From the NCBI GenBank assembly GCA_029945625.1, contig JAQSCW010000029.1, forward strand, positions 109,355-151,152: a stretch of DNA of 41,798 nucleotides, in the 5' to 3' direction. The stretch comes from a bacterium. GTDB lineage: Bacteria > Bacteroidota > Bacteroidia > B-17B0 > Aurantibacillaceae. The notes beneath the pieces were generated by a model. The model did not search any database. It was not told the DNA's origin and saw nothing but the letters and a program-made list of their open reading frames with translations. Below, piece after piece: positions 4,190 to 38,898 of the stretch. Position 1 is the stretch's first letter, and each line of letters begins with the position of its first letter. The position numbers and the translations under genes are program-made.

Positions 4190-4801
4190 ATGATAGTCAT
4201 TGTCGACTACGGCCTTGGAAATTTAGCATCGGTTTTGAACATGTTTAAGAAAATTGGAACTAAAGAAGTTGTCATTTCAGGAGATGCGGATGTAATTTCA
4301 AGAGCAGATAAACTCTTATTGCCCGGTGTGGGTGCATTTGACGGAGGGATGGGGAATTTGGAAAAATCGGGGCTTCTGCCTGTTTTGAATACGAAAGCAC
4401 TAAAGGAAAAGGTGCCGGTATTAGGAATTTGTTTGGGCATGCAAATGCTCAGTAAGAAAAGTGAGGAAGGTGTGAGACCGGGACTAGGATGGATAGATGC
4501 GGAGACCATCAAATTTAATTTGGATCCTGCTTTAAAACTAAAAGTGCCTCACATGGGTTGGGATTATATTCAAGTAAAGAGAGAAAACCCACTCATTGAA
4601 ATGGAATCAAAAAGCAGGTTTTATTTTGTTCATTCTTATCATGTAAAATGTTTTGATGAAAAACAATCCTTGGCTACCTGTCATTTTGGTGAAGACTTTA
4701 CGTGCATGGTAAATAAGGATAATATTTTCGGGACTCAGTTTCATCCGGAGAAGAGTTTGAAATTCGGCATGAAACTTCTCGAAAATTTCGCAAAGATTTA
4801 A
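4190..4801 (+). CDS. hisH: HisH-type glutamine amidotransferase (class I)
   Basis: A 203-residue class I glutaminase of the HisH family. The catalytic triad is visible as C81 (in GICLGMQ), H185 and E187 (in QFHPEKS). HisH hydrolyses glutamine and passes ammonia to HisF. Here no other histidine gene is present; the pair sits at the head of a glycan operon, and an N-acetyl-sugar amidotransferase of the WbpG/PseA type is encoded at 24786. In known O-antigen systems such HisH2/HisF2 pairs supply ammonia to that enzyme to build acetamidino groups. Histidine biosynthesis is therefore the less likely role. First enzyme gene after the leader; separated from hisF by a 128-base repeat. Confidence 0.88.
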   Translation: MIVIVDYGLGNLASVLNMFKKIGTKEVVISGDADVISRADKLLLPGVGAFDGGMGNLEKSGLLPVLNTKALKEKVPVLGICLGMQMLSKKSEEGVRPGLGWIDAETIKFNLDPALKLKVPHMGWDYIQVKRENPLIEMESKSRFYFVHSYHVKCFDEKQSLATCHFGEDFTCMVNKDNIFGTQFHPEKSLKFGMKLLENFAKI

Positions 4802-4929: not shown

Positions 4930-5688
4930 ATGGCGCTGAAGAGAATTATACCTTGTTTACTCTATGACGGCTCAGGCCTAGTAAAAACCATCAAATTCAA
5001 AAACCCCTCTTATATTGGTGACCCAATTAATGCCATTAAGATCTTTAACGAAAAAGAAGTGGATGAGCTCATTTTGATCGACATCATGGCCTCAAAACAA
5101 AAACGCAAACCCAATTTTGATAAGATTGCAGATATGGCATCTGAAGCCTTTATGCCTTTTGCGTATGGTGGAGGAGTTAAAACGTATGAGGATTTTGAAC
5201 GTTTGTATAAGTTGGGTGTGGAAAAGGTAGTTGTTAATTCATTGATTCAGGAAAAGCCGGAGGTGATCAAAAAAGTAATTGCAAAATACGGTGCACAGGC
5301 TGTGGTGGCATGCGTTGATTTTAAAAAGCCATTAATTGGCCGCGTGGCCCCTTATTCGTATATCGGTCATAAAATAAAACACGACCTTAATGGATATGCA
5401 AATTATTTAGCGAATGACATAGGTATTGGAGAATTGATGTTATATAGTGTTGACAAAGACGGAACATGGGAGGGCTATGACTATGGACTGATCGGTGAAC
5501 TTTTAAATGCAGTAGATATTCCGGTAATAGCCTGCGGTGGCTGCGGCTCTGTTGCCGATTTAAAAAAAATATTATACGAAACTAAAGCTAATGCGGCGGC
5601 AATTGGAAGCATGGCGGTTTATAGCAAAAAAGGAATGGGCGTGTTAATAAATTTTCCTCAAAGAAATTCAGTAATATTGGAGCAGTAG
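4930..5688 (+). CDS. hisF: HisF-like ammonia-channelling protein (acetamidino sugar type)
   Basis: A 252-residue (beta/alpha)8 protein of the HisF family from ATG 4930, starting ALKRIIPCLLYDG. In canonical HisF, D11 (in the sequence CLDV) and D130 are the cyclase acid/base pair. Here residue 11 is leucine, while D130 is kept in ACVDFKK. Loss of D11 argues that it is not an imidazole-glycerol-phosphate cyclase but a HisF2-type subunit that conducts ammonia from HisH to a sugar amidotransferase. The partner is probably the WbpG/PseA-type enzyme at 24786, although it lies about 19 kb downstream. The stop overlaps the GTG start of the next gene by one base. Confidence 0.85.
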   Translation: MALKRIIPCLLYDGSGLVKTIKFKNPSYIGDPINAIKIFNEKEVDELILIDIMASKQKRKPNFDKIADMASEAFMPFAYGGGVKTYEDFERLYKLGVEKVVVNSLIQEKPEVIKKVIAKYGAQAVVACVDFKKPLIGRVAPYSYIGHKIKHDLNGYANYLANDIGIGELMLYSVDKDGTWEGYDYGLIGELLNAVDIPVIACGGCGSVADLKKILYETKANAAAIGSMAVYSKKGMGVLINFPQRNSVILEQ

Positions 5689-13855: not shown

Positions 13856-13951
13856 AAAAGTAGTAATTATTGAATAGGATATTTGAGATAGGGAGTAGCA
13901 GGCAAAAGCACTATGTTGGCACGATTACCTGATTATTAATTGGCTTTGCAA

Positions 13952-16737: not shown

Positions 16738-17544
16738 ATGAATAATTTGAGAGTAAAGCAAGAAGACATTACATTTTCCTTTGGTAAAAACTGGCAAAAT
16801 ATGTTGAAGGTTGTGGCAAAAGATGATTTTGATAGATCTCTAGCCGATCTAAACAGATGGTTTGATAACCGTTATGATCTTAAAGACAAAACTATTATTG
16901 ATATTGGAAGTGGTTCGGGAATACATTCACTTATGTTTTATTCGAAAAATCCGGCAAAACTTTTTTCGTTTGACTACGACAAAAATAGCGTGGCGGCTAC
17001 AACATCTGTTTGGGAGAAGGCTGGTAGACCTGAGAATTGGAAAGTGGATCATGGAAGTGTTTTGGATAAAGACTATATGGATAAGCTAGACAAGTATGAT
17101 TTAGTTTATTCTTGGGGTGTCCTGCATCATACCGGAAACATGTGGGAGGCAATAAAAAACGCTTCAAAAGTTGCTAAACCAGGTGGCTATTTTATGTTAG
17201 CGCTGTACCAAGATGTGAAAAATTACGAATACGATATTTTTGTAAAGAAGAAATACAATGCTGCTGGCTTTTTATTAAAAAGATGGATGGAGTGGAGTTT
17301 ACATATTTGGCCTCTTATGAAAGAAAGAACACGCAACAAAAAAAATCCATTTAAGTGGAACGAAAAACTCCCACGCGGAATGAATATTTACCATGATATT
17401 GTAGATTGGTTGGGAGGTCTTCCATATGAAGTTGCAACTGAGGAGGAGCTCATTCAATTCCTTGAGCCTCTTAAATTCACCCTTGTTGATAAGGATTCGA
17501 CCAGGATGTTTGGTACTTACCTTTTTCAGAAAACGCAACCCTAG
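16738..17544 (+). CDS. Class I SAM-dependent methyltransferase
   Basis: A 268-residue soluble methyltransferase. Motif I is IIDIGSGSGIHSLMF (about residues 52-66), then an acidic residue in FSFDYD, and YDLVYSWGVLHHTG with WEAIKNASKVAKPGGYF form the post-motif regions of the Methyltransf_11/25 type. A C-terminal extension (about 165-268, rich in W and K) probably binds the substrate. In this setting it would methylate a sugar hydroxyl, an amino group or a carboxylate; a chain-terminating methyl cap recognised by the Wzt C-terminal domain is one option. It ends four bases before the next gene. Confidence 0.8.
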   Translation: MNNLRVKQEDITFSFGKNWQNMLKVVAKDDFDRSLADLNRWFDNRYDLKDKTIIDIGSGSGIHSLMFYSKNPAKLFSFDYDKNSVAATTSVWEKAGRPENWKVDHGSVLDKDYMDKLDKYDLVYSWGVLHHTGNMWEAIKNASKVAKPGGYFMLALYQDVKNYEYDIFVKKKYNAAGFLLKRWMEWSLHIWPLMKERTRNKKNPFKWNEKLPRGMNIYHDIVDWLGGLPYEVATEEELIQFLEPLKFTLVDKDSTRMFGTYLFQKTQP

Positions 17545-17548
17545 TATT

Positions 17549-19366
17549 ATGTGTGGCATTGCCGGATACATTTCATTAAAAGGCCAAAGCCATGGTCACA
17601 TTGTTGAATCCATGACCCATTCTATTAAGCATCGTGGTCCTGATGGATTTGGTTTTAAAAGCATTGATAATGTATCAATAGGTCATCGAAGACTTTCTAT
17701 CATTGACTTAGAAACGGGTGCACAACCAATGAGTAATGCAAGTGAAACAGTTTGGATAACATACAATGGCGAGCTTTATAACTATGGTGAATTAAAAAAT
17801 GAACTTGAAAAAAGTGGCATTAGGTTTAAGACCAATTCAGACACCGAGGTAATCGTCTATTCATATCAAACCTGGGGAGTTAGCTGTCTTCAAAAGTTTA
17901 GAGGAATGTTTGCATTTGGAATTATCGATTTGAATAAACGGCAGATATTTCTTGCACGGGATCATTTTGGAATTAAACCAATTTACATTTACCAGGACGT
18001 GGCGTCCATTGCTTTTGGAAGTGAGATGCAGCAATTTAATTTAGTGCCGAGCTTTAACAAACAAATTAATTACAGTGCCCTCGACGATTACCTGTGGTTG
18101 CAATACATTCCTGCGCCCAAAACTATATTTAAGCACGTTCAAAATTTGAAACCTGCACATTATTGCACAATTAGTTTTGAGGGGATAATTTCAGAGCAAA
18201 AGGAATATTGGAATGTAAATTTTGCTAAAAAGGAAAATAAAACAAAAGGAGAATGGCTGGAAGCTACTTCTGCTGCAATTAATGAGGCGGTAAAAGTGCA
18301 TTTAGTATCTGATGTACCATTCGGCGCATTTCTTTCCGGCGGAATTGATTCTACTACTGTTGTAAAGTATATGAGTGCTAATTTACCACAGCCTGTTAAA
18401 ACTTTTAGTATTGGCTTTGAAGAAGAGGAATACAACGAATTGAGTTATGCTCTTATTGCGTCAAAAAAATATCAAACCGAGCATTATACTGAAATAGTTA
18501 GGCCAGACGCACTTGGCATATTGCCAGATTTAGTGCGGCACTATGGTGAACCCTTTGGCGATAGTTCTTGCATTCCAACCTATTATGTTTGTAAGTTAGC
18601 CAAACAGCATGTAACTATGGTGTTAAGTGGTGATGGTGGAGATGAATGTTTTGGTGGTTATCCATCCTATTCCGCTTGGATGAGAAATATTGACCTAATT
18701 ACTGATCGATCGTTAAAGGGACGACTAAAAGCAGTGTTAAATCCCGGAGCATCTGCACGCAAAGAATTAGACGAATGGATGCAAATAATACAGTGCCTTA
18801 ATTTAGATTGGAGAAATAAAATTTGGAATAAGGAGATAAATAAGGGGGGTAGAATTGAAGAAAGTATTTTTGCTAGCCTTTACAAACAAACTTCGAAAAT
18901 GGGGTATGCAAATAAAGTGCAGTATATGGATATGAAAACTTATATGCCATTTGATATTTTGCCCAAAGTTGATGTTGCGAGTATGATGCACGGCTTGGAA
19001 GTTAGAACTCCACTTATAGATAGAAAAGTATGGGAATATGCAGCGGGAATACCAGAGGAGATGTTAATCAACAAAACTTCAGGAAATTGGGAAGGTAAAT
19101 TACTATTAAAGCAATTGCTTGAAAAAGATTTTAGAAGTGATTTTATTTATCGTCCCAAAAAGGGATTCGCAGTTCCTCTTTCAAAGTGGTTTTCCAGCAA
19201 TGGAGAATTAAGTCAAGTAATACAAGAAAAGGTGTTGGCTAAAGACTCGTTGATAAATACCATTTTTGATGTTGAAGTTGTCGCTCAAATTTATCGGGAA
19301 AACAATTTAGATGCTGTTTGGTTGCTTCTATTTCTCGAAGAATGGCTAAATCAGTTTAATAATTGA
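17549..19366 (+). CDS. asnB: Asparagine synthase-type amidotransferase (AsnB-like, first copy)
   Basis: I start at ATG 17549, because glutamine-hydrolysing enzymes need Cys at position 2 (MCGIAGY); the open frame upstream to 17426 lies within the methyltransferase gene. The product is 605 residues: an N-terminal class II glutaminase domain (about 2-190, with HRGPDGFG, GHRRLSIID and YNGELYNY) and a C-terminal ATP-pyrophosphatase domain with the PP-loop SGGIDS (263-268). Stand-alone asparagine synthesis is possible, but AsnB paralogues in glycan loci commonly convert a sugar or side-chain carboxylate to an amide, using ATP to adenylate it. A second AsnB at 22823 supports specialised roles. Confidence 0.88.
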   Translation: MCGIAGYISLKGQSHGHIVESMTHSIKHRGPDGFGFKSIDNVSIGHRRLSIIDLETGAQPMSNASETVWITYNGELYNYGELKNELEKSGIRFKTNSDTEVIVYSYQTWGVSCLQKFRGMFAFGIIDLNKRQIFLARDHFGIKPIYIYQDVASIAFGSEMQQFNLVPSFNKQINYSALDDYLWLQYIPAPKTIFKHVQNLKPAHYCTISFEGIISEQKEYWNVNFAKKENKTKGEWLEATSAAINEAVKVHLVSDVPFGAFLSGGIDSTTVVKYMSANLPQPVKTFSIGFEEEEYNELSYALIASKKYQTEHYTEIVRPDALGILPDLVRHYGEPFGDSSCIPTYYVCKLAKQHVTMVLSGDGGDECFGGYPSYSAWMRNIDLITDRSLKGRLKAVLNPGASARKELDEWMQIIQCLNLDWRNKIWNKEINKGGRIEESIFASLYKQTSKMGYANKVQYMDMKTYMPFDILPKVDVASMMHGLEVRTPLIDRKVWEYAAGIPEEMLINKTSGNWEGKLLLKQLLEKDFRSDFIYRPKKGFAVPLSKWFSSNGELSQVIQEKVLAKDSLINTIFDVEVVAQIYRENNLDAVWLLLFLEEWLNQFNN

Positions 19367-22822: not shown

Positions 22823-24808
22823 ATGTGTGGCATCGCAGGCATATGGCACCTTAACAAAAATGAACTCAGTTTCGAAAAACTAAAACGCTTTACCGATTCT
22901 TTGTATCATCGTGGGCCTGATGGTGAAGGATATTTTATTGATGATAAAGCGCAATTAGGTTTGGGGCATCGTCGGCTATCTATTCTCGATTTAAGTGATG
23001 CTGGTAAACAGCCAATGTCTTTTGCCGATGATCGATACCAGATTACTTACAATGGGGAAATATACAATTTCATTGAATTACAAACAGAGTTAGCTGCGAA
23101 GGGTTATACATTTAAAACGGAAACAGATACGGAAGTACTTTTGAGCGCTTATCATTGTTGGGGGAAAGATTGCCTATTAAAATTCAATGGAATGTGGGCA
23201 CTTGCCATCTGGGACAACAAGGAAAAAACTTTATTTTTAGCACGCGACCGCTTTGGCGTAAAGCCTTTGCACTTTCTTCACACGGCAACTATTTTTGCCT
23301 TTGCATCAGAAACGATTGCATTTAAACATCTCGAGGATTATGAGCGTAAAATAGATGGCCAAATGCTCGTGCGTAACATTCTTGATTATCGACGTATGGA
23401 AACCGGCGGTTATACATTGTTTGAAGGCATTCAGCAATTGCAAGCAGGTTGTAGTATCACATTAAGCAGTAGCGGGCGAATTAAAGAAGAACGTTGGTGG
23501 AAAACATTAGATCAAGTTACCCTTTACAAAAACTCTTACGAAAATGCGGTAGAAGAGTTCAAAGACATATTTGAAGATGCCTGCAAAATAAGGTTAAGAA
23601 GTGATGTGCCTATAGCTTCGGCATTAAGTGGGGGCGTAGATTCTTCTGCGGTCTATTGTATGATAAAACATTTGATGGAAAAAAAGGAAAACACAAAACG
23701 CGTTCCATCAAACTGGCAAAAGGCATTTGTGGCGACTTTTCCGGGAGCTCCTGAAGATGAAAGAAAGTATGCGGAAGAAGTCATCGCATTTACAAAAGGG
23801 CAGGTTAACTACATTGAACCTAATTATAAAAACCTGCCGCAGGATATTATTCAATCAACTATTCAATTCGATGCTATTACCGGTACAGCATTAATTGCCG
23901 TGCGTGACGTATATAAAGCTATGCGTGAAAATGGGATAGTGGTGTCTATGGATGGTCATGGTGCTGACGAAACAATGTTTGGATACAGAGCAAGCGTAGC
24001 GGAAACGTTTTTTGATGCGGTTTTATCTGGAGATAAGTTAAGGGAAGATGATATTTTAGAAACTTATATAAATATGGTGGAAGAGGAAAATAGGTCTTCT
24101 GCTGGTAAACGTTTACATGAAAGAGCGAAGCAAATTTTAGTTTTTGAAAAAGGAGGACTTACAAAAAAGTCACTTAACAAGCTAAAGCTTGAGGTAAAAT
24201 CAATACTACATCCAAACCATATTTCCTATTTACAGAAAATTAAAACCGACGATTGGTTCAATGAGACTGAGTTAGATATACCATCTGTATTATTTGACAA
24301 GTATCCAGATTTCAAAAAATATTCGCGCTCCGATTCCCAGTTGTTAACAGACTTTCATATTGAACACATTCCATACAACATGCGTGATTTTGACAGAGCT
24401 AGTATGCAGAATGGGATTGAAATTAGAATGCCTTTTATGGACCATAGGCTTGTTACCTTTTTATTTGGGTTAAAGACCGAGTATAAAGTAGGCCATGGAT
24501 ACACAAAGCGTATTTTGCGCGACAGTATGAAGGGAATAATGCCTGAAAACATCCGTAACAGACGGTTAAAATTAGGATTGAGTGCGCCAATAACCACTTG
24601 GTTTAATGGTCAATTGAATGAATTTGTATTAGACCAAATTAGTTCACAATCCTTCATTCAATCCAAATACTGGAATGGACCCCTGGTTAAGAAATTTGCC
24701 GAAAATAGAACGAATAATAAAACGTGGAATAATGAGGAGGCAGAAAAGTTTTGGAAGATCTTAAATGCGCATATTATTATTAGAAATGACAAAAGTGCAG
24801 GAATATAA
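22823..24808 (+). CDS. asnB: Asparagine synthase-type amidotransferase (AsnB-like, second copy)
   Basis: A 661-residue protein from ATG 22823 with Cys2 as nucleophile (MCGIAGIWHLN). The class II glutaminase domain shows HRGPDGEG, GHRRLSILDLS and TYNGEIYNF; the synthetase domain has the PP-loop SGGVDS (269-274) and DGHGADETMFGYR. It is about 55 residues longer than the AsnB at 17549 and only moderately similar, so the two are not a recent duplication. The last 23 bases overlap the WbpG-type gene, suggesting that the two amidotransferases are made together. Likely amidates a carboxylate in the glycan or its precursor. Confidence 0.88.
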   Translation: MCGIAGIWHLNKNELSFEKLKRFTDSLYHRGPDGEGYFIDDKAQLGLGHRRLSILDLSDAGKQPMSFADDRYQITYNGEIYNFIELQTELAAKGYTFKTETDTEVLLSAYHCWGKDCLLKFNGMWALAIWDNKEKTLFLARDRFGVKPLHFLHTATIFAFASETIAFKHLEDYERKIDGQMLVRNILDYRRMETGGYTLFEGIQQLQAGCSITLSSSGRIKEERWWKTLDQVTLYKNSYENAVEEFKDIFEDACKIRLRSDVPIASALSGGVDSSAVYCMIKHLMEKKENTKRVPSNWQKAFVATFPGAPEDERKYAEEVIAFTKGQVNYIEPNYKNLPQDIIQSTIQFDAITGTALIAVRDVYKAMRENGIVVSMDGHGADETMFGYRASVAETFFDAVLSGDKLREDDILETYINMVEEENRSSAGKRLHERAKQILVFEKGGLTKKSLNKLKLEVKSILHPNHISYLQKIKTDDWFNETELDIPSVLFDKYPDFKKYSRSDSQLLTDFHIEHIPYNMRDFDRASMQNGIEIRMPFMDHRLVTFLFGLKTEYKVGHGYTKRILRDSMKGIMPENIRNRRLKLGLSAPITTWFNGQLNEFVLDQISSQSFIQSKYWNGPLVKKFAENRTNNKTWNNEEAEKFWKILNAHIIIRNDKSAGI

Positions 24809-25961
24809 ACAATGTAAGCGTTGTGTATTGGACACTACTAGCAACACTATTGACTTTGATGAAAATGGAATATGTAATTATTGTCATGCGTTTGATAGGC
24901 AATTGACAAAATTTATTACCATTGACCCGCAATTGCGAAAACGTAACTTGGATGAAATGGTTAATTACATTAAACTATGTGGTGAAAATAAAAAGTACGA
25001 TTGCATTTTGGGTTTAAGTGGAGGTGTTGACAGCACTTACATGGCGTATATGGCAAAAAAGCTGGGATTACGGCCAATGGCTGTGCATTTTGATAATGGA
25101 TGGAATTCTGAACTTGCTGTGAAAAATATTGAAAATATTGTTTCTAAATTGGAACTCGATTTAATTACCTATGTAATAAACTGGGAAGAGTTTAAAGAAA
25201 TGCAATTAGCATATTTAAAGGCATCAGTAGTGGATATCGAAGTGCCAACAGATCAACTTATATTTGCCGCGTTGCATAAAATTGCTGTCCAAAACGGAAT
25301 TAAATTTATTTTAAGTGGGTCAAATATAGTTACTGAATACGGTATGCCATCAGATTGGGCCTACAGAAACAAATCGGACCAGACTAATTTATTAAATATA
25401 TATAAAGCATTTGGTAGGGGAAAAACGTTAACCACTCTTCCCAAATTTGACCTATTTAAAAAATTTGCGTACCAATCTTTACATGGAATTCAAACACTTG
25501 CATTGCTTAATTACATAGATTTTAATAAAGCGGAGGTTAAAAAACTAATCACGAAAGAACTGAATTGGAGAGACTATGGCGGGAAACATTACGAATCGAT
25601 ATTTACTAGGTTTTATCAAGGATACATTCTGCCAGTTAAATTTAATGTCGATAAACGAAAAGCACACCTTTCTGCATTAATCTGCTCTGGTCAGATTACG
25701 AAGGAAGAAGCTATAGCTGAGCTAGAAGAGGAAACCTATGATCCAATCCTGCAGAGAGAAGACAAAGAATTTGTGAAGAAAAAATTTGATTTGACGGAAT
25801 TGGAATTCCAGGACATACTAAAGAGGACTAGAGTTGAACATGAATTTTATGGGGTTGAGAATGAAAGCGCGTTTAGCTTTATAACTTATAAAGCAATTAT
25901 GGCGTTACCAGTGTGGGGAGTAACAAATTGGCGCCGCCTGAGAAATAAATTAAAACGATAA
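24786..25961 (+). CDS. N-acetyl sugar amidotransferase (WbpG/PseA/LegA-type)
   Basis: A 391-residue PP-loop ATPase; I choose ATG 24786, just before the conserved zinc-ribbon-like cysteines C10-x2-C13-x16-C30-x2-C33. The PP-loop is SGGVDS (78-83), and SGSNIVTEYGMPSDWAYRN belongs to the family core. WbpG, PseA and LegA-type enzymes adenylate the N-acetyl group of an activated sugar and use ammonia from HisH/HisF to make an acetamidino group. The HisH/HisF partners at 4190 and 4930 are in the same operon but 19 kb away. The gene overlaps asnB by 23 bases. Substrate could be a mannosaminuronic, bacillosamine or nonulosonic acid derivative; no nonulosonic acid synthase is visible here. Confidence 0.9.
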   Translation: MTKVQEYKQCKRCVLDTTSNTIDFDENGICNYCHAFDRQLTKFITIDPQLRKRNLDEMVNYIKLCGENKKYDCILGLSGGVDSTYMAYMAKKLGLRPMAVHFDNGWNSELAVKNIENIVSKLELDLITYVINWEEFKEMQLAYLKASVVDIEVPTDQLIFAALHKIAVQNGIKFILSGSNIVTEYGMPSDWAYRNKSDQTNLLNIYKAFGRGKTLTTLPKFDLFKKFAYQSLHGIQTLALLNYIDFNKAEVKKLITKELNWRDYGGKHYESIFTRFYQGYILPVKFNVDKRKAHLSALICSGQITKEEAIAELEEETYDPILQREDKEFVKKKFDLTELEFQDILKRTRVEHEFYGVENESAFSFITYKAIMALPVWGVTNWRRLRNKLKR

Positions 25962-30057: not shown

Positions 30058-30562
30058 ATTAAAATTTCAGGAATTTCTAAATTCCGAACAAATTAGCAAA
30101 CAGATTTTTGAATCTGTGGAGTTAATAAAAAAGTGTAAACGCATCTTCTTTATTGGTAATGGTGGCTCTAACTCCATTTGTTCACACATGATGGAAGATT
30201 ATGCCAAAATATTGAACTATCCGACATTTGCATTCAGTGACGCTGCATTAATAACTTGTTTTGCAAATGATTATGGCTTCGAAAACGCAGTGGCGGAATG
30301 GCTGAAAAGACATTTTATTGAAGGAGATCTTTTGGTAGCAATAAGCAGTTCTGGAAATTCCGCAAACATTAATAATGCTGTTGATTTTGCAAAAGGCTTA
30401 AAAGGACAAATTATTACTTTAAGTGGTTTTGAAAAAAACAACAAACTAGTTGAAAAAGGCCTAATTAATTTTTGGTTAAATTCTTCAAGTTATGGTATAG
30501 TAGAATGTTACCATCAAACCATCCTTCATATAATTTTAGACGAACTACATGCAAATAAATAG
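30038..30562 (+). CDS. SIS-domain phosphosugar isomerase (GmhA-like)
   Basis: A 174-residue single SIS domain. FFIGNGGSNSICSHMMEDYAK and LVAISSSGNSANINNAVDFAK are the two phosphate-binding serine/glycine loops of GmhA (sedoheptulose-7-phosphate isomerase), and the C-terminal VECYHQTILHIILDEL matches the metal/active-site helix. ATG 30038 overlaps the kinase gene. The reaction predicted is sedoheptulose-7-phosphate to a D-glycero-heptose-7-phosphate, but another ketose phosphate cannot be excluded. Confidence 0.83.
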   Translation: MPLNIYKLKFQEFLNSEQISKQIFESVELIKKCKRIFFIGNGGSNSICSHMMEDYAKILNYPTFAFSDAALITCFANDYGFENAVAEWLKRHFIEGDLLVAISSSGNSANINNAVDFAKGLKGQIITLSGFEKNNKLVEKGLINFWLNSSSYGIVECYHQTILHIILDELHANK

Positions 30563-31463
30563 AGTACTAATAACAGGTGTAGCGGGGTTTATTGGGTCTA
30601 ATTTATTGGATTACCTTCTGGAAAAAACAACATGGCAAATTACCGGGATAGATAACTTAAGTACTGGCAGCAAAAATAATATCAGTACGCACCTAAACAC
30701 TACAAGGTTTAGATTTGTTAAAGATAATATTAGAAATTTAAACTCTGTAAAGCAATACGATTGCATTTTTCATTTAGCCGCATTGCCCAGGATACAACCC
30801 AGCTTTGAATTTGTAACCGAACATATTACTGAAAATTTAACGAGCTCCATGCATATCATTGAACTCATGATAGGGGAAAATCATTTTCCGAAATTTGTTT
30901 TCAGTAGTTCCAGCGCGATTTATGGCACGCCTACTACAATTCCTACTCCTGAAACAGAAGCAATTGAATGTCTTAGTCCTTACGCTTTTCAGAAATACGA
31001 AGTAGAAAAATATCTGGAACTCTTGAGCACGCGTTATCCCTTAGATTATATTTGTCTCCGTTACTTTAATCCTTATGGCCCACGTAGCTTTAATCCTGAA
31101 AATAAATTTAATGCGTATAGCAGTGTTGTCGGAATCTTTTTATACCGAAGAGAAAAGGGTCAAAAGTTATTGGTAACCGGCGAGGGGTCGCAAAAACGAG
31201 ATTTTATTCACGTATCAGATTTAGCAAAGGCAAATTATTTAGCAGCAATTAATCCCAATAAACTGAACACGGCCTTTAATATTGGCAATGGTTCAACATT
31301 AAGCGTTTTAGAATTGGCTCAGCGTATTTCAGGCAAGGATTACGAATTTATTCCAAAAAGAGAAGGAGAGTCAGACATTACCTTTGCAGATGTTAAAAAG
31401 GCTAAAGATTTATTAGGATGGCATCCCGAACAAAAAATGGAAGATTATTTAAAAAGTAATTAG
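30549..31463 (+). CDS. NAD-dependent nucleotide-sugar epimerase/dehydratase
   Basis: A 304-residue extended SDR from ATG 30549, overlapping the SIS gene by 14 bases. VLITGVAGFIGSNLLDYL is the NAD motif; SSSSAIYG and SPYAFQKYEVEKYL hold the catalytic serine, tyrosine and lysine; RYFNPYGPR and GSQKRDFIHVSDLA are GalE/RmlB-like. Within the kinase-isomerase-nucleotidyltransferase group it could epimerise the nucleotide-activated heptose, as HldD does, or modify it at C4. I cannot tell which. Confidence 0.8.
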   Translation: MQINRVLITGVAGFIGSNLLDYLLEKTTWQITGIDNLSTGSKNNISTHLNTTRFRFVKDNIRNLNSVKQYDCIFHLAALPRIQPSFEFVTEHITENLTSSMHIIELMIGENHFPKFVFSSSSAIYGTPTTIPTPETEAIECLSPYAFQKYEVEKYLELLSTRYPLDYICLRYFNPYGPRSFNPENKFNAYSSVVGIFLYRREKGQKLLVTGEGSQKRDFIHVSDLAKANYLAAINPNKLNTAFNIGNGSTLSVLELAQRISGKDYEFIPKREGESDITFADVKKAKDLLGWHPEQKMEDYLKSN

Positions 31464-31464
31464 A

Positions 31465-31866
31465 ATGAAAATAGGGTTTACCTGTGGTGTTTTTGATTTG
31501 TTTCATGCCGGCCATGTTTTAATGTTAGAAGAATGCAAAAACAATTGTAACTATTTAATTGTTGCGTTGAATAAAGCAGAAAACATTTCAGAAACTATTA
31601 ATCCGGGTAAGAAAAAGCCAATCTTTACAATAGAAGAGCGTGTTCTGATAATGAAAGCATGCAGATATGTGGACGAGGTACTTACCTATAATTCTGAAGA
31701 AGAACTTTTAGAAATTCTTAAAACTAAAAACATAAGCGTCAGATTTTTGGGTGAAGATTATAAAGGAAAGAAAATTACGGGATCTGAGCTAAACATGAAA
31801 ATTTATTTTACAGATCGCGGTCATGGACTCTCAACCTCGCTTTATCGGACACGCGCTGGCTTATAG
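31465..31866 (+). CDS. Cytidylyltransferase-family nucleotidyltransferase (HldE C-domain/TagD-like)
   Basis: A 133-residue protein with the nucleotidyltransferase-fold HxGH motif H14-A-G-H17 in TCGVFDLFHAGHVLML, the FTIEERVLIMKACRYVDEVL stretch, and the C-terminal STSLYRTR equivalent of the ISTT-x-I-x-x-R signature. It should couple a sugar-1-phosphate to ATP or CTP. Placement next to the PfkB kinase and GmhA-like gene suggests that it activates the heptose-like sugar, giving an ADP- or CDP-linked donor. The nucleotide cannot be read from the sequence. Confidence 0.85.
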   Translation: MKIGFTCGVFDLFHAGHVLMLEECKNNCNYLIVALNKAENISETINPGKKKPIFTIEERVLIMKACRYVDEVLTYNSEEELLEILKTKNISVRFLGEDYKGKKITGSELNMKIYFTDRGHGLSTSLYRTRAGL

Positions 31867-31887: not shown

Positions 31888-32568
31888 TTGCTCTTTAACA
31901 CCTTCGACTTCCTCTTTCTCTTTTTTCCACTGGTAACGCTCGTGTATTATTTACTACCCCACAGTTACAGATGGATATGGCTTTTAGGAGCCAGCGTCTA
32001 TTTTTACTCGTATTTTATCCCTTATTATCTTTTCATTTTAATCATAGCAATTATCATCGATTATTCTGCAGGCATATTAATTGAAAATTCAAACAATCAA
32101 AAGCACAAAAAATATTATTTAATTACCAGCATCTTTTCAACCGTTTTATTGCTTTTTATTTTCAAGTATTATAATTTCGCAGTAGAAAACATCAATCACC
32201 TAGGAAGTTTCGTTCAAGAGGGTTGGAAATTAGATTTTATATCAATCGCATTACCGGTTGGCCTCTCGTTTCATACATTCCAGAGTTTAAGTTATGTAAT
32301 AGAAGTATATAGGGGAAAGCAAAAGGCGGAACGCCATTTTGGAATTTATAGTTTGTATGTAATGTTTTACCCGCAATTGGTTGCCGGGCCAATTGAAAGG
32401 CCTCAAAATATAATACACCAATTTTATGAAAAACATAATTTTGATCATTTTCAATTCACAATGGGATTGCGACTAATGGTTTGGGGTTTATTTAAAAAAG
32501 TGGTGATTGCTGACAATATTAACCACGTTACAAATAATATCTTCGCAAATTATGCGCACTTAAATTAG
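31888..32568 (+). pseudogene. MBOAT O-acyltransferase, N-terminal half only
   Basis: From TTG 31888 this reads as an AlgI/DltB-type MBOAT membrane protein: LFNTFDFLFLFFPLVTLVYYLLP, then ALPVGLSFHTFQSLSYVIEVYRG and MFYPQLVAGPIERP. It ends at residue 226 after GLFKKVVIADNINHVTN, just where the family would continue into the conserved WRRWHISLS region with the catalytic histidine; full-length members are roughly 460-500 residues. The next gene is an SGNH-type protein that lacks its own N-terminal anchor, so a deletion seems to have joined the two. As it stands the protein lacks the catalytic half and should be inactive. Confidence 0.82.
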
Positions 32569-32588
32569 AAGGTGGCCAGACAAAATTA

Positions 32589-33347
32589 ATGTTTAATGAT
32601 TTAAAAAAATTTGAAGCGGATGATAGCACTATTTTCGTGATAGGTTCTTCTCATGCTTACAGAGGGTATGATCCGCGGATTTTTGAAGCCGCCGGGATAA
32701 AATTATTTAATATGGGTACATCTGGCCAAAATATGAAAGATTCATATACTCTGATAAAGGCAAATCAATCGAAAATTCACAGACTAGTGGTCGATATCTA
32801 CCCTGGTGTATTGGAAGAGGTTTCGGAAGAGTCTACGCTCATGCTGATTCAAAATGTAAATGTTAACCGTATTGCTTTTGAAATTCTTAAAAATAACGTC
32901 ACTATAAACAGCATAAATAATATGACAGCTCGGTTGTTTGACTTAAATCATAAATCCCTACCCGTACGAGAAAAATATATTTACAATGGTTATGTTGAAA
33001 GAGATACTTATTTTAAAAGTGATAGCAATCGAGCCTTCGGTAGTTTTACCCCAGGTGGGAATTTTATATACCTTGATTCCATGTTGAATTTTTGTTCTTC
33101 ACACTTTATTAATACTTGGATTGCCAGTCATCCTTTAAAATGGAACGCTTCATATAGGAATTATTACAAAAATTCATATTTACCTTGGATCCAAAAAATA
33201 CTTTCTAAGTACCCGGATGTTGTTTTTTTAGATTTCACCTTAAATCATTCAAATTCTGATTCGCTTTTTTCTGATGAAGGTCATTTGAATCAAAGAGGTG
33301 TAAATTATTACAATAATATGTTATTAAGGAAGTTGAGTGAATTTTAA
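32589..33347 (+). CDS. SGNH-hydrolase-like protein, probably N-terminally truncated
   Basis: A 252-residue protein from ATG 32589. The first catalytic block is GSSHAY with S20/S21 (VIGSSHAYRGYDP) and the last is D229-E-G-H232 (LFSDEGHLNQRG), the Ser...Asp-x-x-His arrangement of SGNH esterases/acetyltransferases that partner MBOAT proteins (AlgX/DltD-like role). Related proteins usually start with a membrane anchor and about 40 residues before the GSSH block; here only 18 precede it. The open frame continues upstream to about 32538 without a membrane helix. Together with the truncated MBOAT this points to a deletion spanning the junction near 32560-32590. Confidence 0.65.
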   Translation: MFNDLKKFEADDSTIFVIGSSHAYRGYDPRIFEAAGIKLFNMGTSGQNMKDSYTLIKANQSKIHRLVVDIYPGVLEEVSEESTLMLIQNVNVNRIAFEILKNNVTINSINNMTARLFDLNHKSLPVREKYIYNGYVERDTYFKSDSNRAFGSFTPGGNFIYLDSMLNFCSSHFINTWIASHPLKWNASYRNYYKNSYLPWIQKILSKYPDVVFLDFTLNHSNSDSLFSDEGHLNQRGVNYYNNMLLRKLSEF

Positions 33348-33448: not shown

Positions 33449-35275
33449 ATGTGCGGAATATTTGGCATTATTGCTCCAGAAGCTGTTAATAAGGGGGACC
33501 TAAAATTATTGGTGAAACATGCTCAGCAAAGAGGAAAGGATTCCAGCGGATTGATATTTATAGAAGGCGGTCAATACAATATATACAGAGCAGATTATAA
33601 CATCGAAAAGCTTCTAAAGAAAACCAAGCCTTATGCCTCTTCAATTGTTTTGGGTCATAGTCGACTTATTACCAATGGGCTAGCTGATAATCAACCTGTA
33701 ATTAGGGATGATGTGTTTGTGCTTCATAACGGCATCATTGTGAATGATGACGAAATCTGGAAGGATCTAAAGATGGAAAGGAAATTTCAAATTGATTCAG
33801 AAGTTATAGCAGGCATTGCTTTAGAGCATCTTAAAAACAGTATGCCTATTGCAGATTTGGCTAATGTTATAATGACTAAATGCATAGGCGTTGTTTCATG
33901 CGCTTTATTGATTCAAAACCTCGGCAAAGTTATTTTATTCTCAAACAACGGAAGTTTGTATGTTGGCTTAAAGGAGGGGGCAACTTATTTCGCCTCCGAA
34001 AAATATGCATTAACAGAGATTGGATGTGAGAATATTTCTCAGATTCATAAATCATTTAAAATTATTGATATACCAGTACCAGGTAATTTGAAGTGGAATC
34101 TAAATGACTTCAAGGTTCGGACAGAGGATTTAATTCCTGAATTTGTTTACAATAAAAGCCAAGAGGCATTATTAGAATATAAGAAACATCACTTAAGGAG
34201 ATGTTCGAAATGTATTTTACCTGAAACAATGCCATACATTCGTTTTAATGAGCAGGGCGTTTGTAATTATTGTATGCACTATAAACCACGCAATACGCCG
34301 AAACCGAAAGAGGAGTTATTCAAACTACTTGAACCATACAGAAGGACGAGTGGATTAGAGTGTGTAGTTCCGTTTTCTGGTGGAAGAGATAGTTGTTACG
34401 GACTACATTTAATCGTAAAAGAACTAGACCTGAGACCAGTGACTTATACCTACGATTGGGGCATGGTAACCGATCTAGGCAGAAGAAATATTAGCAGAAT
34501 GTGTGGAGAATTGGGAGTAGAAAATATTATTGTGGCAGCGGATATTTCTCTAAAACGCAAAAACATCCGTATGAATTTAGAAGCTTGGCTAAAAGCACCC
34601 AATTTGGGGATGATGGCTATGTTGACTGCAGGTGATAAACATTTTTTCCGATATGCTGAGGAAGTGAAGAAACAAACCGGCGTAGAGTTAAATCTCTGGG
34701 GCATTAACCCCTTGGAAGTGACGCATTTTAAAACCGGTTTTTTAGGTATTAAACCCGATTTTGAAGAAGAGCGAGTTTATAGCCATGGTGCTATGAAGCA
34801 ATTGCGCTATCACCTCAAACGCTTTCGGGCAATGTTAGACAGTCCGGGGTATTTTAACTCATCACTTTGGGATACCTTATCTGGTGAGTATTACAGGAGT
34901 CTGACTAAGAAAAATGACTACTATCATATATTCGATTACTGGCGCTGGGATGAGGAATTAGTTAATTCTGTGCTGATCAATGAATATAATTGGGAACTTG
35001 CAACAGATACCAGTACTACATGGAGGATCGGTGATGGGACAGCAGCATTTTATAATTATGTCTATTACACGGTTGCTGGCTTTACTGAGCATGATACATT
35101 TAGGAGTAACCAGATTCGTGAGGGTCAGATGACCAGAGAAAGAGCACTGGCCTTGGTTGCAGATGAGAATCAGCCCAGATATCAAAACATAAGATGGTAC
35201 CTTGATACTTTAGGACTGGATTTTGAAAACGTCATAAAAACTGTAAACAAAATTGAAAAATTATTCAAGGAGTAG
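33449..35275 (+). CDS. Fused class II glutaminase and WbpG-like PP-loop sugar amidotransferase
   Basis: A 608-residue protein from ATG 33449 with Cys2 as glutaminase nucleophile (MCGIFGI). Residues about 2-230 are a class II glutamine amidotransferase domain (GHSRLITNGLADNQP, VLHNGIIVND). Residues about 250-600 resemble WbpG/PseA enzymes: cysteines C252-x2-C255-x16-C272-x2-C275, with exactly the spacing seen in the protein at 24786, and the PP-loop SGGRDS (310-315). It therefore combines its own ammonia source with a sugar amidotransferase, instead of relying on HisH/HisF. It is not AsnB: the cysteine cluster and the layout after the PP-loop differ. Substrate unknown; it may form a second amidine or amide in the glycan. 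Confidence 0.82.
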   Translation: MCGIFGIIAPEAVNKGDLKLLVKHAQQRGKDSSGLIFIEGGQYNIYRADYNIEKLLKKTKPYASSIVLGHSRLITNGLADNQPVIRDDVFVLHNGIIVNDDEIWKDLKMERKFQIDSEVIAGIALEHLKNSMPIADLANVIMTKCIGVVSCALLIQNLGKVILFSNNGSLYVGLKEGATYFASEKYALTEIGCENISQIHKSFKIIDIPVPGNLKWNLNDFKVRTEDLIPEFVYNKSQEALLEYKKHHLRRCSKCILPETMPYIRFNEQGVCNYCMHYKPRNTPKPKEELFKLLEPYRRTSGLECVVPFSGGRDSCYGLHLIVKELDLRPVTYTYDWGMVTDLGRRNISRMCGELGVENIIVAADISLKRKNIRMNLEAWLKAPNLGMMAMLTAGDKHFFRYAEEVKKQTGVELNLWGINPLEVTHFKTGFLGIKPDFEEERVYSHGAMKQLRYHLKRFRAMLDSPGYFNSSLWDTLSGEYYRSLTKKNDYYHIFDYWRWDEELVNSVLINEYNWELATDTSTTWRIGDGTAAFYNYVYYTVAGFTEHDTFRSNQIREGQMTRERALALVADENQPRYQNIRWYLDTLGLDFENVIKTVNKIEKLFKE

Positions 35276-35353: not shown

Positions 35354-36565
35354 GTGCATTTTACAATTGTTACCTATGCTTTCCCGCCTTCAAAAGAAAT
35401 TGGAGGCAGACGATGGGCTAAGTTCTGTCAACAGTTGGTACAAAAGGGACAAGAAGTAACCGTTGTTTGCGCAAATGATTCGGTAAATCGAGAATACTAT
35501 GAAAGTGAATTTCCCGGAATTGAAGTAAGGGTGTTGCCAAAATGTTATCCAGAGTGGCTTGGCGGTTTTACGAAATCTTTAAGGGAGAAATTATTGTATT
35601 TTATTTATATACGTGTAGTGAGCCTCATTACAAAACAAAATTTATTCGATAGGGGATATTCGTGGAAAAAAACGATGTTAACTGCATTAGCGGATATACA
35701 CCGTGTAAAACCCATTGACGTTTTGGTGGTTACAGGCGCACCGTTTTCTTTATTATATTATGGGTCGCTCTTTAAAATGCGTCACAGGGAAATACTATAT
35801 GTCTGCGACCTACGTGACCCATGGACTTGGGGAAGCTACTATGGAATACCGACCTTATCAACATCCAAAAAAAAGTATCAAGAGGAGTCAGAGTACAAAG
35901 CCATGGAAGCTTGCGACATCTTTTGTTATCCAACCGAACACATGGGTGAGGCTTTAAAGAAAATATATCCTGCATTTTGCTCTAAACTCTATCTGCTTCC
36001 ACACGCTTATGATCCAGATAAATTTTCAAATTCAACTGTGGAGGAAAAGAGGGTTGGGTTTATTTATGGTGGCAGTCTATACCCCGGTATTGAAAAATAC
36101 ATTAAACAACTAGGTGAAATTGTGAAGGCAAATCCTACTTCAGGTTTTAAGTGGGATATTTATACAGGAACAAATTATCCATTGTTGGATTCAGGCTTTG
36201 CTAATGGTTGTGTTCAAAAACATTCGTTCATTCCTGAAGAACAGTTGTTTCAAAAGATTAAGAAATCTTCTGCTTATTTGGCTTTCTTCCCAATTACAGA
36301 TAAAGATTTGATTTCAACGAAATTCTTCGAAATAATTTACGCTAAAACCCCGATACTGTACATTGGAGAAGAGGGTGATGTTGGAAGATTTGTTAGAGAA
36401 AACCGTGTTGGTGTCCATATATTACCAGAAAACATGAAGCGTGATTTGCCAAAATATTTAAGCGGAAATGTGCCTTTTGAAAAAGATTATTTTAATGTGA
36501 CGCAATACGCATTCTCTACTGTTACAGAGAATTTTTTAAGCGCATTAAAGCACTACAGAAACTAG
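35354..36565 (+). CDS. Glycosyltransferase, GT4-like (GGRRWAK group)
   Basis: A 403-residue GT-B protein from GTG 35354, beginning HFTIVTYAFPPSKEIGGRRWAKFCQQL. It is a paralogue of the protein at 26961. YVCDLRDPWTWGS, LLPHAYDPDKF and KKSSAYLAFFPITDKDLISTKFFEIIYAKTPILYIG outline the two domains (the last begins near residue 300). The acidic donor-site residue of typical GT4 enzymes is replaced by the STKFFEI region. A 78-base spacer without recognisable structure precedes it. The sugar is unknown. Confidence 0.78.
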   Translation: MHFTIVTYAFPPSKEIGGRRWAKFCQQLVQKGQEVTVVCANDSVNREYYESEFPGIEVRVLPKCYPEWLGGFTKSLREKLLYFIYIRVVSLITKQNLFDRGYSWKKTMLTALADIHRVKPIDVLVVTGAPFSLLYYGSLFKMRHREILYVCDLRDPWTWGSYYGIPTLSTSKKKYQEESEYKAMEACDIFCYPTEHMGEALKKIYPAFCSKLYLLPHAYDPDKFSNSTVEEKRVGFIYGGSLYPGIEKYIKQLGEIVKANPTSGFKWDIYTGTNYPLLDSGFANGCVQKHSFIPEEQLFQKIKKSSAYLAFFPITDKDLISTKFFEIIYAKTPILYIGEEGDVGRFVRENRVGVHILPENMKRDLPKYLSGNVPFEKDYFNVTQYAFSTVTENFLSALKHYRN

Positions 36566-36655: not shown

Positions 36656-37756
36656 ATGCAATATAAAAATATATATATTTTAATCGGCACCCGGCCAAAT
36701 TTCATAAAAGTCACCCAATTTAAAAAAGTTGCGAAAAAATTGCATCCAACTTTTGCTATTAAATTAATTCATACCGGCCAACATTACGATGAAAAAATGG
36801 CGGATGTTTTTTTTAAACAGTTTAATTTGATACCGGATTATTACTTAAACATTAAATCGGCATCGGCCAACAAACAAATTGCAGAGATTATGATTAAGTT
36901 GGAGGATTTAATCTTTGAAATAGGTAAACCAGATATTTTGCTAGTACCGGGTGATGTTAATTCGAGCTTAGCTGGAGCAATATTTGCTAATAAACATGAA
37001 ATTAAATTAGGGCACATAGAATCAGGTTTAAGAAGTTTTGATAAAAGTATGCCGGAAGAGCACAATCGAATTTTAACGGATGAGTTAAGCGATTATTATT
37101 TTGTTACAGAACCTAGTGGTCTAAAGCATTTGAAGAACGAAGGCAAGGCCTCCTCAAAAATTCACTACGTTGGTAATACTATGATAGATACAATGGTAGC
37201 ATATAATAAAGAAATAGATGAATCAAATGTCTTAAACGATTTAAAAATTGGGGCCGATAAATTTATTTTAATGACCATGCACCGACCTGCAACGGTTGAT
37301 AATAAAGCAGAGCTAGAAAAACTAATTCAATTTATTGAAGAAGTAAGTATAAAATATATAGTTGTTTTCCCAATTCACCCAAGAACAATTAAAAACGCTA
37401 AAGAATTTTCTTTGTACGAGCGTTTGATTTCAAATAAAAATTTAATCGCTACAGAACCTTTAGATTATTTTGCGTTTCAAAAATTAGTAAAGAACTGCGA
37501 ATTTATTCTGACAGATAGTGGCGGAATTCAAGAAGAATCAACCTTTAGACAAAAACCCTGTCTAACTCTTCGTCCTAATACCGAAAGGCCGGTTACAGTA
37601 GAAGAAGGAACCAATACACTTTTGGATTTTGATTTAGAAAAAATAGAGGAATACATTCAACAAATAGAAGAGGGAACCTATAAAAAGGGAAAGATACCAA
37701 CTCTCTGGGATGGAAGGGCAACGGAGCGAATTTTAGAAGTCCTAAGCAAACTTTGA
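36656..37756 (+). CDS. wecB: UDP-GlcNAc 2-epimerase (non-hydrolysing, WecB-like)
   Basis: A 366-residue GT-B-like epimerase. LIGTRPNFIKV, HTGQHYDEKM, LVPGDVNSSLAGA, HIESGLRSFD, PEEHNRILTDELSDYYFVTE, MHRPATVDN and LTDSGGIQEE are the conserved blocks in order. The family converts UDP-GlcNAc to UDP-ManNAc; WbpI-type relatives act on diacetamido-uronic acid forms and feed WbpG-type amidotransferases, so either substrate is possible. No UDP-ManNAc dehydrogenase is in the window. It overlaps the next gene by four bases. Confidence 0.88.
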   Translation: MQYKNIYILIGTRPNFIKVTQFKKVAKKLHPTFAIKLIHTGQHYDEKMADVFFKQFNLIPDYYLNIKSASANKQIAEIMIKLEDLIFEIGKPDILLVPGDVNSSLAGAIFANKHEIKLGHIESGLRSFDKSMPEEHNRILTDELSDYYFVTEPSGLKHLKNEGKASSKIHYVGNTMIDTMVAYNKEIDESNVLNDLKIGADKFILMTMHRPATVDNKAELEKLIQFIEEVSIKYIVVFPIHPRTIKNAKEFSLYERLISNKNLIATEPLDYFAFQKLVKNCEFILTDSGGIQEESTFRQKPCLTLRPNTERPVTVEEGTNTLLDFDLEKIEEYIQQIEEGTYKKGKIPTLWDGRATERILEVLSKL

Positions 37757-38898
37757 TTTTTTATTTAACATATAATGATGGCCCCTCAGGAATATTTTCT
37801 AGTCAAGTTATTGATGTTGTTAAACATTTGCGATTTAACCTCCAAGCAAAAATTAAATTGGTGTCCTTTGTTTCGGCGCGTAATTTCTTGATAGTGCGAA
37901 AAGAAATAAAAGGGGAACTACCTGATGCACTAGTTTTACCTATGTTTCCGGGCGTTTTTAGATGGAGAGCCAATATTCCGTTATTAAAAATTATTTGCCG
38001 TATATTTCGCCCCAAGCTAATAATTGGCCGTGGCCTATTAGCAACAAATTTGGCTTTTAGAGCGCACCCTAAGCGAACTATTTATGATGGAAGGGGGGCT
38101 ATAGAGGCTGAGTGGATGGAGTACGATGTGGTGAAGAGTAAATCACTGCTTTCGCAGGTACATAAACTGGAGAACGAGGCCATAAATTCTTCAATTTTTC
38201 GATTGGCGGTTTCGCAGAAACTTGTTGACTATTGGGTAAGTCAATTTAATTACCGGAAATTGGATCATGTGGTAATACCATGCACTCTAAATGAAAGTTT
38301 TGAGAATATTGAGTTAAACATGAATTCTATTTCGAATGTAAGATTGGAGCTTGGTTTAGAAGGGGATGATATTGTATTTCTATATTCTGGTTCAACTGCC
38401 GGTTGGCAGTCCTTTAAATTACTTCATGATTTTATCCAGCCAATACTGTTGGCATCAATGAGAAACAAAATAGTTTTTTTCTGTGATTTAGACGAGAATA
38501 TAGAACTACTTCAATCTGAATTTGGCCAGAGAGTGATCAATAGGAAGTTGCAAAGTTCGGAGGTGTCTAAGCATTTATTGGCGGGTGATTATGGTTTGCT
38601 AATCAGGGAAGAAAGTGTGACGAATCAGGTGGCTTCACCTGTGAAATTTGCCGAATACCTGGCAAGCGGTTTGTTTGTGATTATTTCGGAGAATCTTGGT
38701 GACTATAGTGAATTTGTAAAGGATAAAAAATGCGGCTATTTAAGTAATGAACATAAACATTTGGTGAAGCCTGAGTTGGATGACAAAATAAGGATTAAAA
38801 AGCTCGCGAATGATTATTTCACAAAAGCAAACTATATGCAACAATACAGCCAGCTGATAGGTTTTTGCGAAAAAGAAGAGCATTCTGTGGATTCTTAA
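37753..38898 (+). CDS. Glycosyltransferase, GT4-like
   Basis: A 381-residue protein from TTG 37753, overlapping the upstream stop. The N-terminus FYLTYNDGPSGIFSSQVIDVVKHL and IIGRGLLATNLAFRAHPKRTIYDGRG belong to the acceptor domain; FLYSGSTAGWQSFKLLHDFI and VASPVKFAEYLASGLFVII to the donor domain. This pattern is common in Bacteroidota envelope loci. It is the last plus-strand gene before the inverted acyltransferase gene. Confidence 0.75.
   Translation: MIFYLTYNDGPSGIFSSQVIDVVKHLRFNLQAKIKLVSFVSARNFLIVRKEIKGELPDALVLPMFPGVFRWRANIPLLKIICRIFRPKLIIGRGLLATNLAFRAHPKRTIYDGRGAIEAEWMEYDVVKSKSLLSQVHKLENEAINSSIFRLAVSQKLVDYWVSQFNYRKLDHVVIPCTLNESFENIELNMNSISNVRLELGLEGDDIVFLYSGSTAGWQSFKLLHDFIQPILLASMRNKIVFFCDLDENIELLQSEFGQRVINRKLQSSEVSKHLLAGDYGLLIREESVTNQVASPVKFAEYLASGLFVIISENLGDYSEFVKDKKCGYLSNEHKHLVKPELDDKIRIKKLANDYFTKANYMQQYSQLIGFCEKEEHSVDS

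Follow-up and report, generated by a model that had tools for sequence, protein, structure and literature searches.

A GlmS-type glutaminase joined to an N-acetyl sugar amidotransferase domain: a likely single-chain amidinase in bacterial surface-sugar gene clusters

Acetamidino sugars lend positive charges to otherwise acidic surface polysaccharides, and the locus described here raises the question whether the nitrogen of their amidine group may be introduced by one self-sufficient protein. The window, i.e. the whole stretch of 41,798 nt that was analyzed (contig JAQSCW010000029.1, positions 109,355 to 151,152, from a member of the Aurantibacillaceae), contains a run of genes on one strand from 4190 to 38898. 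Within this run lie the components of the classical acetamidino system: the class I glutaminase HisH (4190..4801, + strand; TIGR01855, 236 bits), a HisF of the AglZ/HisF2 type (4930..5688, +; 307.9 bits to AglZ_HisF2, cut-off 310) and, about 19 kb from these two, a separate N-acetyl sugar amidotransferase (NASAT) of the WbpG/WbuX type (24765..25961, +; TIGR03573, 286.9 bits), which might instead start at 24786. The host genome carries, in addition to this three-part system, the open reading frame at 33449..35275 (+, ATG start, 608 aa, beginning with MCGIFG), which the initial annotation described as a fusion of a glutaminase with a PP-loop domain that combines the functions of all three proteins and shares an operon with the WbpG-type gene. 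As regards the operon, the two genes do belong to the same run, and what can be seen of their linkage is the common strand and the short gaps, the largest of which is 197 bp. The HisH of the window is the only one over the cut-off in the host genome and the HisF is the only match of HisF strength (the next best reaches 34.9 bits); because there is only this pair, and because hisD gave no match in the host genome, which is listed as 100% complete, HisH and HisF are unlikely to serve histidine synthesis here, and the host probably cannot make histidine.

The N-terminal part of the fusion (residues 1-209, 33449..34075) matches the Pfam families GATase_6 (33 bits) and GATase_7 (31.4 bits) above their cut-offs, and the GlmS model NF001484 aligns with residues 1-192 at 69 bits; the cut-off of this whole-protein model is 381, which a single domain is not expected to reach. 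The catalytic residue of this class II (Ntn) glutaminase would be Cys2 (33452..33454), which becomes the N-terminal nucleophile once Met1 is lost and aligns with Cys1 of GlmS (1xff). All Pfam matches in the protein are confined to this part, and the same search found no SIS/isomerase domain. The C-terminal part (residues 246-608, 34184..35272) carries the zinc tetracysteine C252-x2-C255-x16-C272-x2-C275 (34202..34273), with spacing identical to that of the protein at 24765, just as the initial annotation had pointed out, and a PP-loop SGGRDS (S310 to S315, 34376..34393). TIGR03573 (WbuX, N-acetyl sugar amidotransferase) matches residues 251-589 at 132 bits (E 3.4e-38). The curated cut-off of this model, 203.2, is missed by the fusion and exceeded by the separate NASAT of the window; the fusions of 12 other genomes score 127-148 bits, all under the same threshold. 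Owing to these scores we file the fusion as a sister clade rather than as a member of TIGR03573. A direct comparison of the two NASAT-type proteins of the window yields 26% identity over 191 aa (E 2e-15).

A structural model of the fusion was built with AlphaFold2 from 67 aligned sequences (63 of the 80 loci introduced below, the window and three long forms), with a mean pLDDT of 91.8 and a pTM of 0.91, and comparison with solved structures divides it into two parts, resembling the GlmS/PurF glutaminases over residues 2-209 and 8WEX over residues 246-608. The best glutaminase match is 1xff_A (Z 22.8, 206 residues, 2.6 A, model residues 2-209), and the second part matches the Legionella NASAT 8wex_B (Z 22.8, 325 residues, 4.2 A, 20% identity). 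The initial annotation had asked whether the second domain might be that of an ordinary AsnB synthetase. This reading was rejected: the Asn_synthase family PF00733 is absent from the fusion at E <= 0.1, at which the AsnB-type protein at 22823 of the window scores 193.7 bits, and asparagine synthetase B (1ct9; Z 19.1, 185 residues) aligns in effect with the glutaminase domain, the rest having the NASAT fold. The fold matches also include the nitrile synthetase ArtA (Z 12.3), and one plasmid homolog is annotated as '7-cyano-7-deazaguanine synthase', so one could imagine another PP-loop reaction for the second domain, such as nitrile or thioamide formation of the kind performed by QueC, ArtA or sulfur transferases. 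We regard this as extremely improbable, as 8WEX is far ahead and covers the whole domain, and wherever a locus was gone through gene by gene, the fusion had polysaccharide genes around it. As judged from sequence and from the predicted fold, the protein is an intact GlmS-type class II glutaminase joined to a zinc/PP-loop NASAT domain, an arrangement that we assign with high confidence.

The residues of both active-site regions are conserved. In an alignment of 81 fusions (the window and 80 loci, with the row L089, which has an internal stop, kept in the count) 178 positions are invariant, among them C2, R28, R72, T75, H93-N94-G95, D116 and E118, as well as the four zinc-binding Cys residues and the whole PP-loop; the initial annotation was thus right to expect a class II glutaminase with Cys2 as its nucleophile, unrelated to HisH, and the glutaminase active site, on whose presence it had made its proposal depend, is intact in 81/81 rows. 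The invariance of Met1-Cys2 in all aligned relatives also backs the ATG start of the reading frame. The motif blocks of the domain align with C1, HTRWATHG, HNGII and ETDTEVI of GlmS 1xff, and R72, T75, N94, G95 and D116 of the fusion fall in these aligned motifs; we take R73, T76, N98, G99 and D123 (GlmS numbering) to be the glutamine-binding residues of GlmS. All 81 fusions have Leu where GlmS has Trp after the active-site Arg, and the AsnB-type protein of the window also carries Leu there. A chance occurrence of the motifs was considered and rejected in view of the fold match and the 81/81 conservation. According to the available part of PMC10607449, NASATs are defined by a zinc tetracysteine CxxC...[GN]xCxxC together with a PP-loop SGGxDS, and the fusion family agrees with this motif definition in 81 rows out of 81.

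The fusion is not unique to the host genome, and its family is found widely in gene clusters for bacterial surface sugars. Among the loci inspected, the fused architecture occurs in at least five of 296 genomes of the host phylum, the host included, with a sixth partial match. A scan with one genome per species found 497 relatives, some of which may be one-domain relatives, since they were matched by one pattern from each domain; the best 80 of the 497, which were kept and examined, are 62-90% identical to the query and cover at least its residues 1-579. They represent Bacteroidota, Campylobacterota, alpha-, beta- and gammaproteobacteria, Planctomycetota, Verrucomicrobia, Bacillota and further groups, many being MAGs. 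In plasmids, 3 of 232 matching records cover 80% or more of the query, with general annotations only. A longer form of the fusion (frames of 676-680 aa in the loci L005, L006 and L007) has a more diverged glutaminase with extra sequence inside and after it. In a tree of the NASAT domain (23 of the 81 short fusions, 3 long fusions and 32 unfused rows) one branch with support 100/99 parts the 26 fused from the 32 unfused rows, with long branches present. After 7 long-branch unfused rows had been dropped, 20 core positions were common to 26/26 fused and at least 90% of the 25 remaining unfused rows, and 24 conserved positions separated the fused clade from the unfused NASATs. These 24 positions and the scores under the WbuX cut-off mean that the chemistry or the substrate of the fusion may differ from that of WbpG and WbuX. 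Members are currently labeled 'hypothetical protein', 'glucosamine 6-phosphate synthetase' (a name that looks misleading) or '7-cyano-7-deazaguanine synthase'. In the titles and abstract openings listed from the open-licence PMC literature we found no description of a class II glutaminase-NASAT fusion; its parts are already known, and within that literature the combined enzyme appears undescribed and seems to have neither a name nor a tested function.

Does the fusion depend on HisH and HisF, as WbpG does? The strongest evidence that it needs no outside glutaminase comes from genome content. No WbpG, HisH or HisF was found in 59 of the 80 loci, while all three are present in 14; HisF lies near 16 of the 17 fusions that have a separate WbpG nearby, versus 1 of the other 63. 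In one locus (L037) HisH and HisF occur with no WbpG nearby, and in three (L065, L109 and L110) HisH occurs alone. These neighbor counts are lower bounds, since the gene calling in the loci was a crude longest-ORF procedure that missed even the fusion frame in 5 of the 80; the numbers also vary slightly between clusterings, many loci end at contig edges, and 53 of the 80 extend 8 kb on both sides. The same picture emerges from 12 whole genomes, all of named isolates, hand-picked from the 80 loci: a separate WbpG-type NASAT scored over the cut-off in 4, a HisF2 and two HisH proteins scored over their cut-offs in the same 4 and in none of the other 8, and the latter have no HisF2 and at most one HisH over the cut-off (none in Taylorella asinigenitalis). 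Gene content at both levels makes the idea that the fusion needs HisH/HisF unlikely, and the lack of a HisF2 or a second HisH over the cut-off in these eight genomes bears out the description of the fusion as self-contained. The same data bear on the proposal that the fusion is mainly a supplier of ammonia, or a regulator, with a separate WbpG performing the sugar chemistry. Such a WbpG exists in the window and in the 17 loci, but the eight fusion-only genomes contain none over the cut-off that could be served, and the fusion has an invariant zinc site and PP-loop of its own, so that we consider this scheme highly improbable.

We consider it likely that the fusion is a single-chain, glutamine-dependent N-acetyl-sugar amidinase that acts on a UDP-2-acetamido-2-deoxy-hexuronic acid; its chemistry is more certain than its sugar, and both the substrate and the position of the amidine are proposals. 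In this scheme, Cys2 would hydrolyze glutamine, the released ammonia would reach the PP-loop domain by an internal route, ATP would adenylate the carbonyl oxygen of the N-acetyl group on the nucleotide sugar, and ammonia would displace AMP to yield an acetamidine (NAm) group. The fusion would thereby stand in for HisH, HisF2 and WbpG together, with UDP-GlcNAcA or its 3-NAc or manno derivatives as the likeliest substrates and a zwitterionic sugar of a surface polysaccharide as the product.

The window itself is of limited help in identifying the sugar, as the neighbors of the fusion do not add up to one. Directly downstream lies a GT4-type glycosyltransferase (35354..36565, +; PF13439/PF13579, E ~2e-6 and 4e-6, just under the cut-offs). 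The window also has a non-hydrolysing UDP-HexNAc(A) 2-epimerase of the WecB/WbpI type (36656..37756, +; TIGR00236, 301 bits), and on another contig the host genome encodes a nucleotide-sugar dehydrogenase next to a WbpB-like gene. The run also contains an AsnB/WbpS-type amidotransferase (17426..19366, +; TIGR03108, 548.9 bits, below the cut-off of 816.9; TIGR01536, 450.5 bits, over the cut-off; PF00733, 285.8 bits) and a second AsnB-type amidotransferase (22823..24808, +), which overlaps the start of the WbpG-type frame by 44 nt; the window thus holds three kinds of amidation enzyme. The co-occurrence of the fusion with the WbpG-type gene might, as the initial annotation proposed, reflect two different amidated sugars. 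Other genes of the cluster deserve mention in their own right. A methionine-salvage-like trio is found at 12150-14695 (MtnA, 453.9 bits, the sole MtnA match in the host genome; a class II aldolase; and an MTA phosphorylase, 287.9 bits), and at 29185-31866 a PfkB kinase, a SIS isomerase, an epimerase and an HldE-like nucleotidyltransferase stand in a row that resembles an NDP-heptose activation cassette. At 8980-9978 a radical SAM/SPASM protein, whose best NCBIfam matches are far below the cut-offs, is flanked by two DegT aminotransferases, and the frames 31888-33347, 37753-38898 and 40187-41563, in or beside the run, have no Pfam match at E <= 1e-4.

More can be learned from T. asinigenitalis, in whose genus two of seven genomes carry a full-length fusion, and whose published O-polysaccharide structure differs from that of T. 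equigenitalis, according to the accessible part of PMC3250509. The draft genome of strain ATCC 700933 yielded no NASAT besides the fusion. A profile search of this genome revealed no HisH (best match 19.2 bits) and no HisF, the best match to the HisF2 profile (66.8 bits) being a HisA-like protein that scores 150.5 bits to the HisA model and 76.8 to HisF; this protein, which by eye lies directly after a MurA-like fragment (L131, 494-1249), may be what is left of a lost histidine operon. WbpB and WbpI gave no match in the genome, which has one TviB-type UDP-GlcNAc dehydrogenase over the cut-off (685.6 bits). The fusion locus (L107) encodes a phosphoglycosyl transferase (TIGR03025, 251 bits, below the cut-off), a NeuD/PglD-type acetyltransferase (TIGR03570, 175 bits, over the cut-off), a UDP-GlcNAc 4,6-dehydratase-type protein of 614 aa (TIGR03589, 195 bits, below the cut-off), a DegT aminotransferase, a single GT4 and a flippase-cluster protein, together with the fusion and a protein that by eye is Wzy-like. 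We take the O-polysaccharide of this species to be a disaccharide of diacetamido-bacillosamine and 2-acetamidino-2-deoxy-glucuronic acid; if this structure is right, the gene content fits it, and no NASAT other than the fusion was found that could introduce the amidine. A VimE-type deacetylase (NF053580, cut-off 440) was also noted near the fusion in 16 of the 80 loci, among them L107 (104 bits, below the cut-off), L096 (158 bits, likewise below), L070 and L047.

A second case is found in Escherichia coli. A near-identity DNA search of this species with 8.35 kb of the window as the query gave no match, and a distant search with a Xenorhabdus copy located the fusion in 2 of 5426 genomes, Z1323CEC0003 and Z1323CEC0011, 66% identical to that of the window. 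It lies in an O-antigen cluster with the order galF-[Gfo/Idh, TviB, acyltransferase, DegT, flippase, polymerase, GT4, WecB, fusion, GT4]-gnd, in which no WbpG, HisF2 or AsnB is annotated. We read the Gfo/Idh, TviB, acyltransferase, DegT and WecB genes as a putative WbpB/A/D/E/I set for ManNAc3NAcA, the NCBIfam matches of three of them being general only. The cluster is rare (L129, 5005-18058 in NZ_CP148493.1; L130 in NZ_CP148440.1) and contains two frameshifted ISAs1 transposase genes. Between the GT4 genes that follow the fusion in the window and in E. coli no orthology is evident (E 0.009), and a fixed fusion-glycosyltransferase pair is not proposed for the window.

As read here, the common denominator of the two cases is a 2-acetamido-hexuronic acid. 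The TviB model matched over its cut-off in 4 of 7 fusion genomes and more weakly in the other 3 (565.8, 228.5 and 222.9 bits); as a pointer to a uronic acid these matches are only partly specific, with 13 of the 14 control genomes giving hits under the cut-off too. The sugar could also be a different one, such as the diacetamido-bacillosamine made by PglF, PglE and PglD, with the fusion amidinating its N-acetyl group. PglC-, PglD- and PglF-like genes are indeed common around the fusion (44, 27 and 32 of the 80 loci), and T. asinigenitalis has such genes next to its fusion. The annotation of the E. coli cluster, however, shows no bacillosamine set, and its nucleotide-sugar genes belong to the WbpA/B/D/E/I type, which leaves this substrate improbable in our view.

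The main rival to the amidinase reading accepts the uronic acid and changes the chemistry: the NASAT-derived domain would amidate the C6 carboxylate of the 2-acetamido-hexuronic acid, in the manner of the AsnB-type WbpS, and the fusion would be a uronamide synthase. The TviB matches speak for this proposal, neither the E. coli nor the T. asinigenitalis locus lists an AsnB near the fusion, and WbpS makes uronamides of just such sugars, as stated in the available parts of PMC7468200 and PMC6025236. On the other hand, the domain has the NASAT fold, and the NASATs with known products, WbpG and WbuX, amidinate N-acetyl groups (PMC10607449, in its available part). A uronamide synthase would also be redundant with the AsnB-type enzymes that occur near the fusion in 22 of the 80 loci (two in the window), in some of which uronamides may be made by those enzymes. 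Finally, the O-polysaccharide structure given above for T. asinigenitalis would combine an acetamidino group with a free carboxylate. We consider the uronamide proposal unlikely, and keep it as the one to be weighed first against amidination of the N-acetyl group.

Our broader interpretation, towards which we lean with less assurance than towards the enzymatic assignment, is that the fusions form an unnamed, widespread family of single-chain amidinases that constitute a second, HisH/HisF-independent acetamidino route, in which a GlmS-type glutaminase became attached to a NASAT specialized for 2-acetamido-hexuronic acids, in parallel to the domain order of asparagine synthetase. If this is true, the presence of the fusion in a gene cluster predicts a zwitterionic residue, with an amidine and a carboxylate, in the surface polysaccharide, and the gene would become a marker of amidinated residues for O-antigen prediction, including that of the E. 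coli cluster described above. The NASAT family has a crystal structure, and its functional properties are called little known in the available part of PMC10607449; a single-gene version that works with no HisH or HisF would let amidotransfer be tested with one purified protein.

The proposed enzyme can be placed among four known systems. With the NASATs WbpG and WbuX it shares the zinc tetracysteine, the PP-loop and the fold of the whole domain, but these proteins are unfused, and in the four genomes where one stands beside the fusion it is accompanied by a HisF2 and a second HisH. With the complete HisH/HisF2/WbpG system it would share the overall reaction, the transfer of glutamine nitrogen to the N-acetyl group of a sugar; there, however, the glutaminase is the separate class I protein HisH and ammonia passes through the HisF barrel, whereas the fusion has a class II glutaminase on the same chain. 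The AsnB/WbpS amidotransferases resemble it in domain order, a class II glutaminase followed by a PP-loop ATPase, and in the fold of the glutaminase, but the fusion has no Asn_synthase domain by sequence, and its second domain folds like a NASAT and carries a zinc site. GlmS, finally, is the closest relative of its glutaminase by sequence, with matching active-site motifs, and differs from it in the isomerase domain, for which no counterpart was found in the fusion, and in the Trp that Leu replaces after the active-site Arg.
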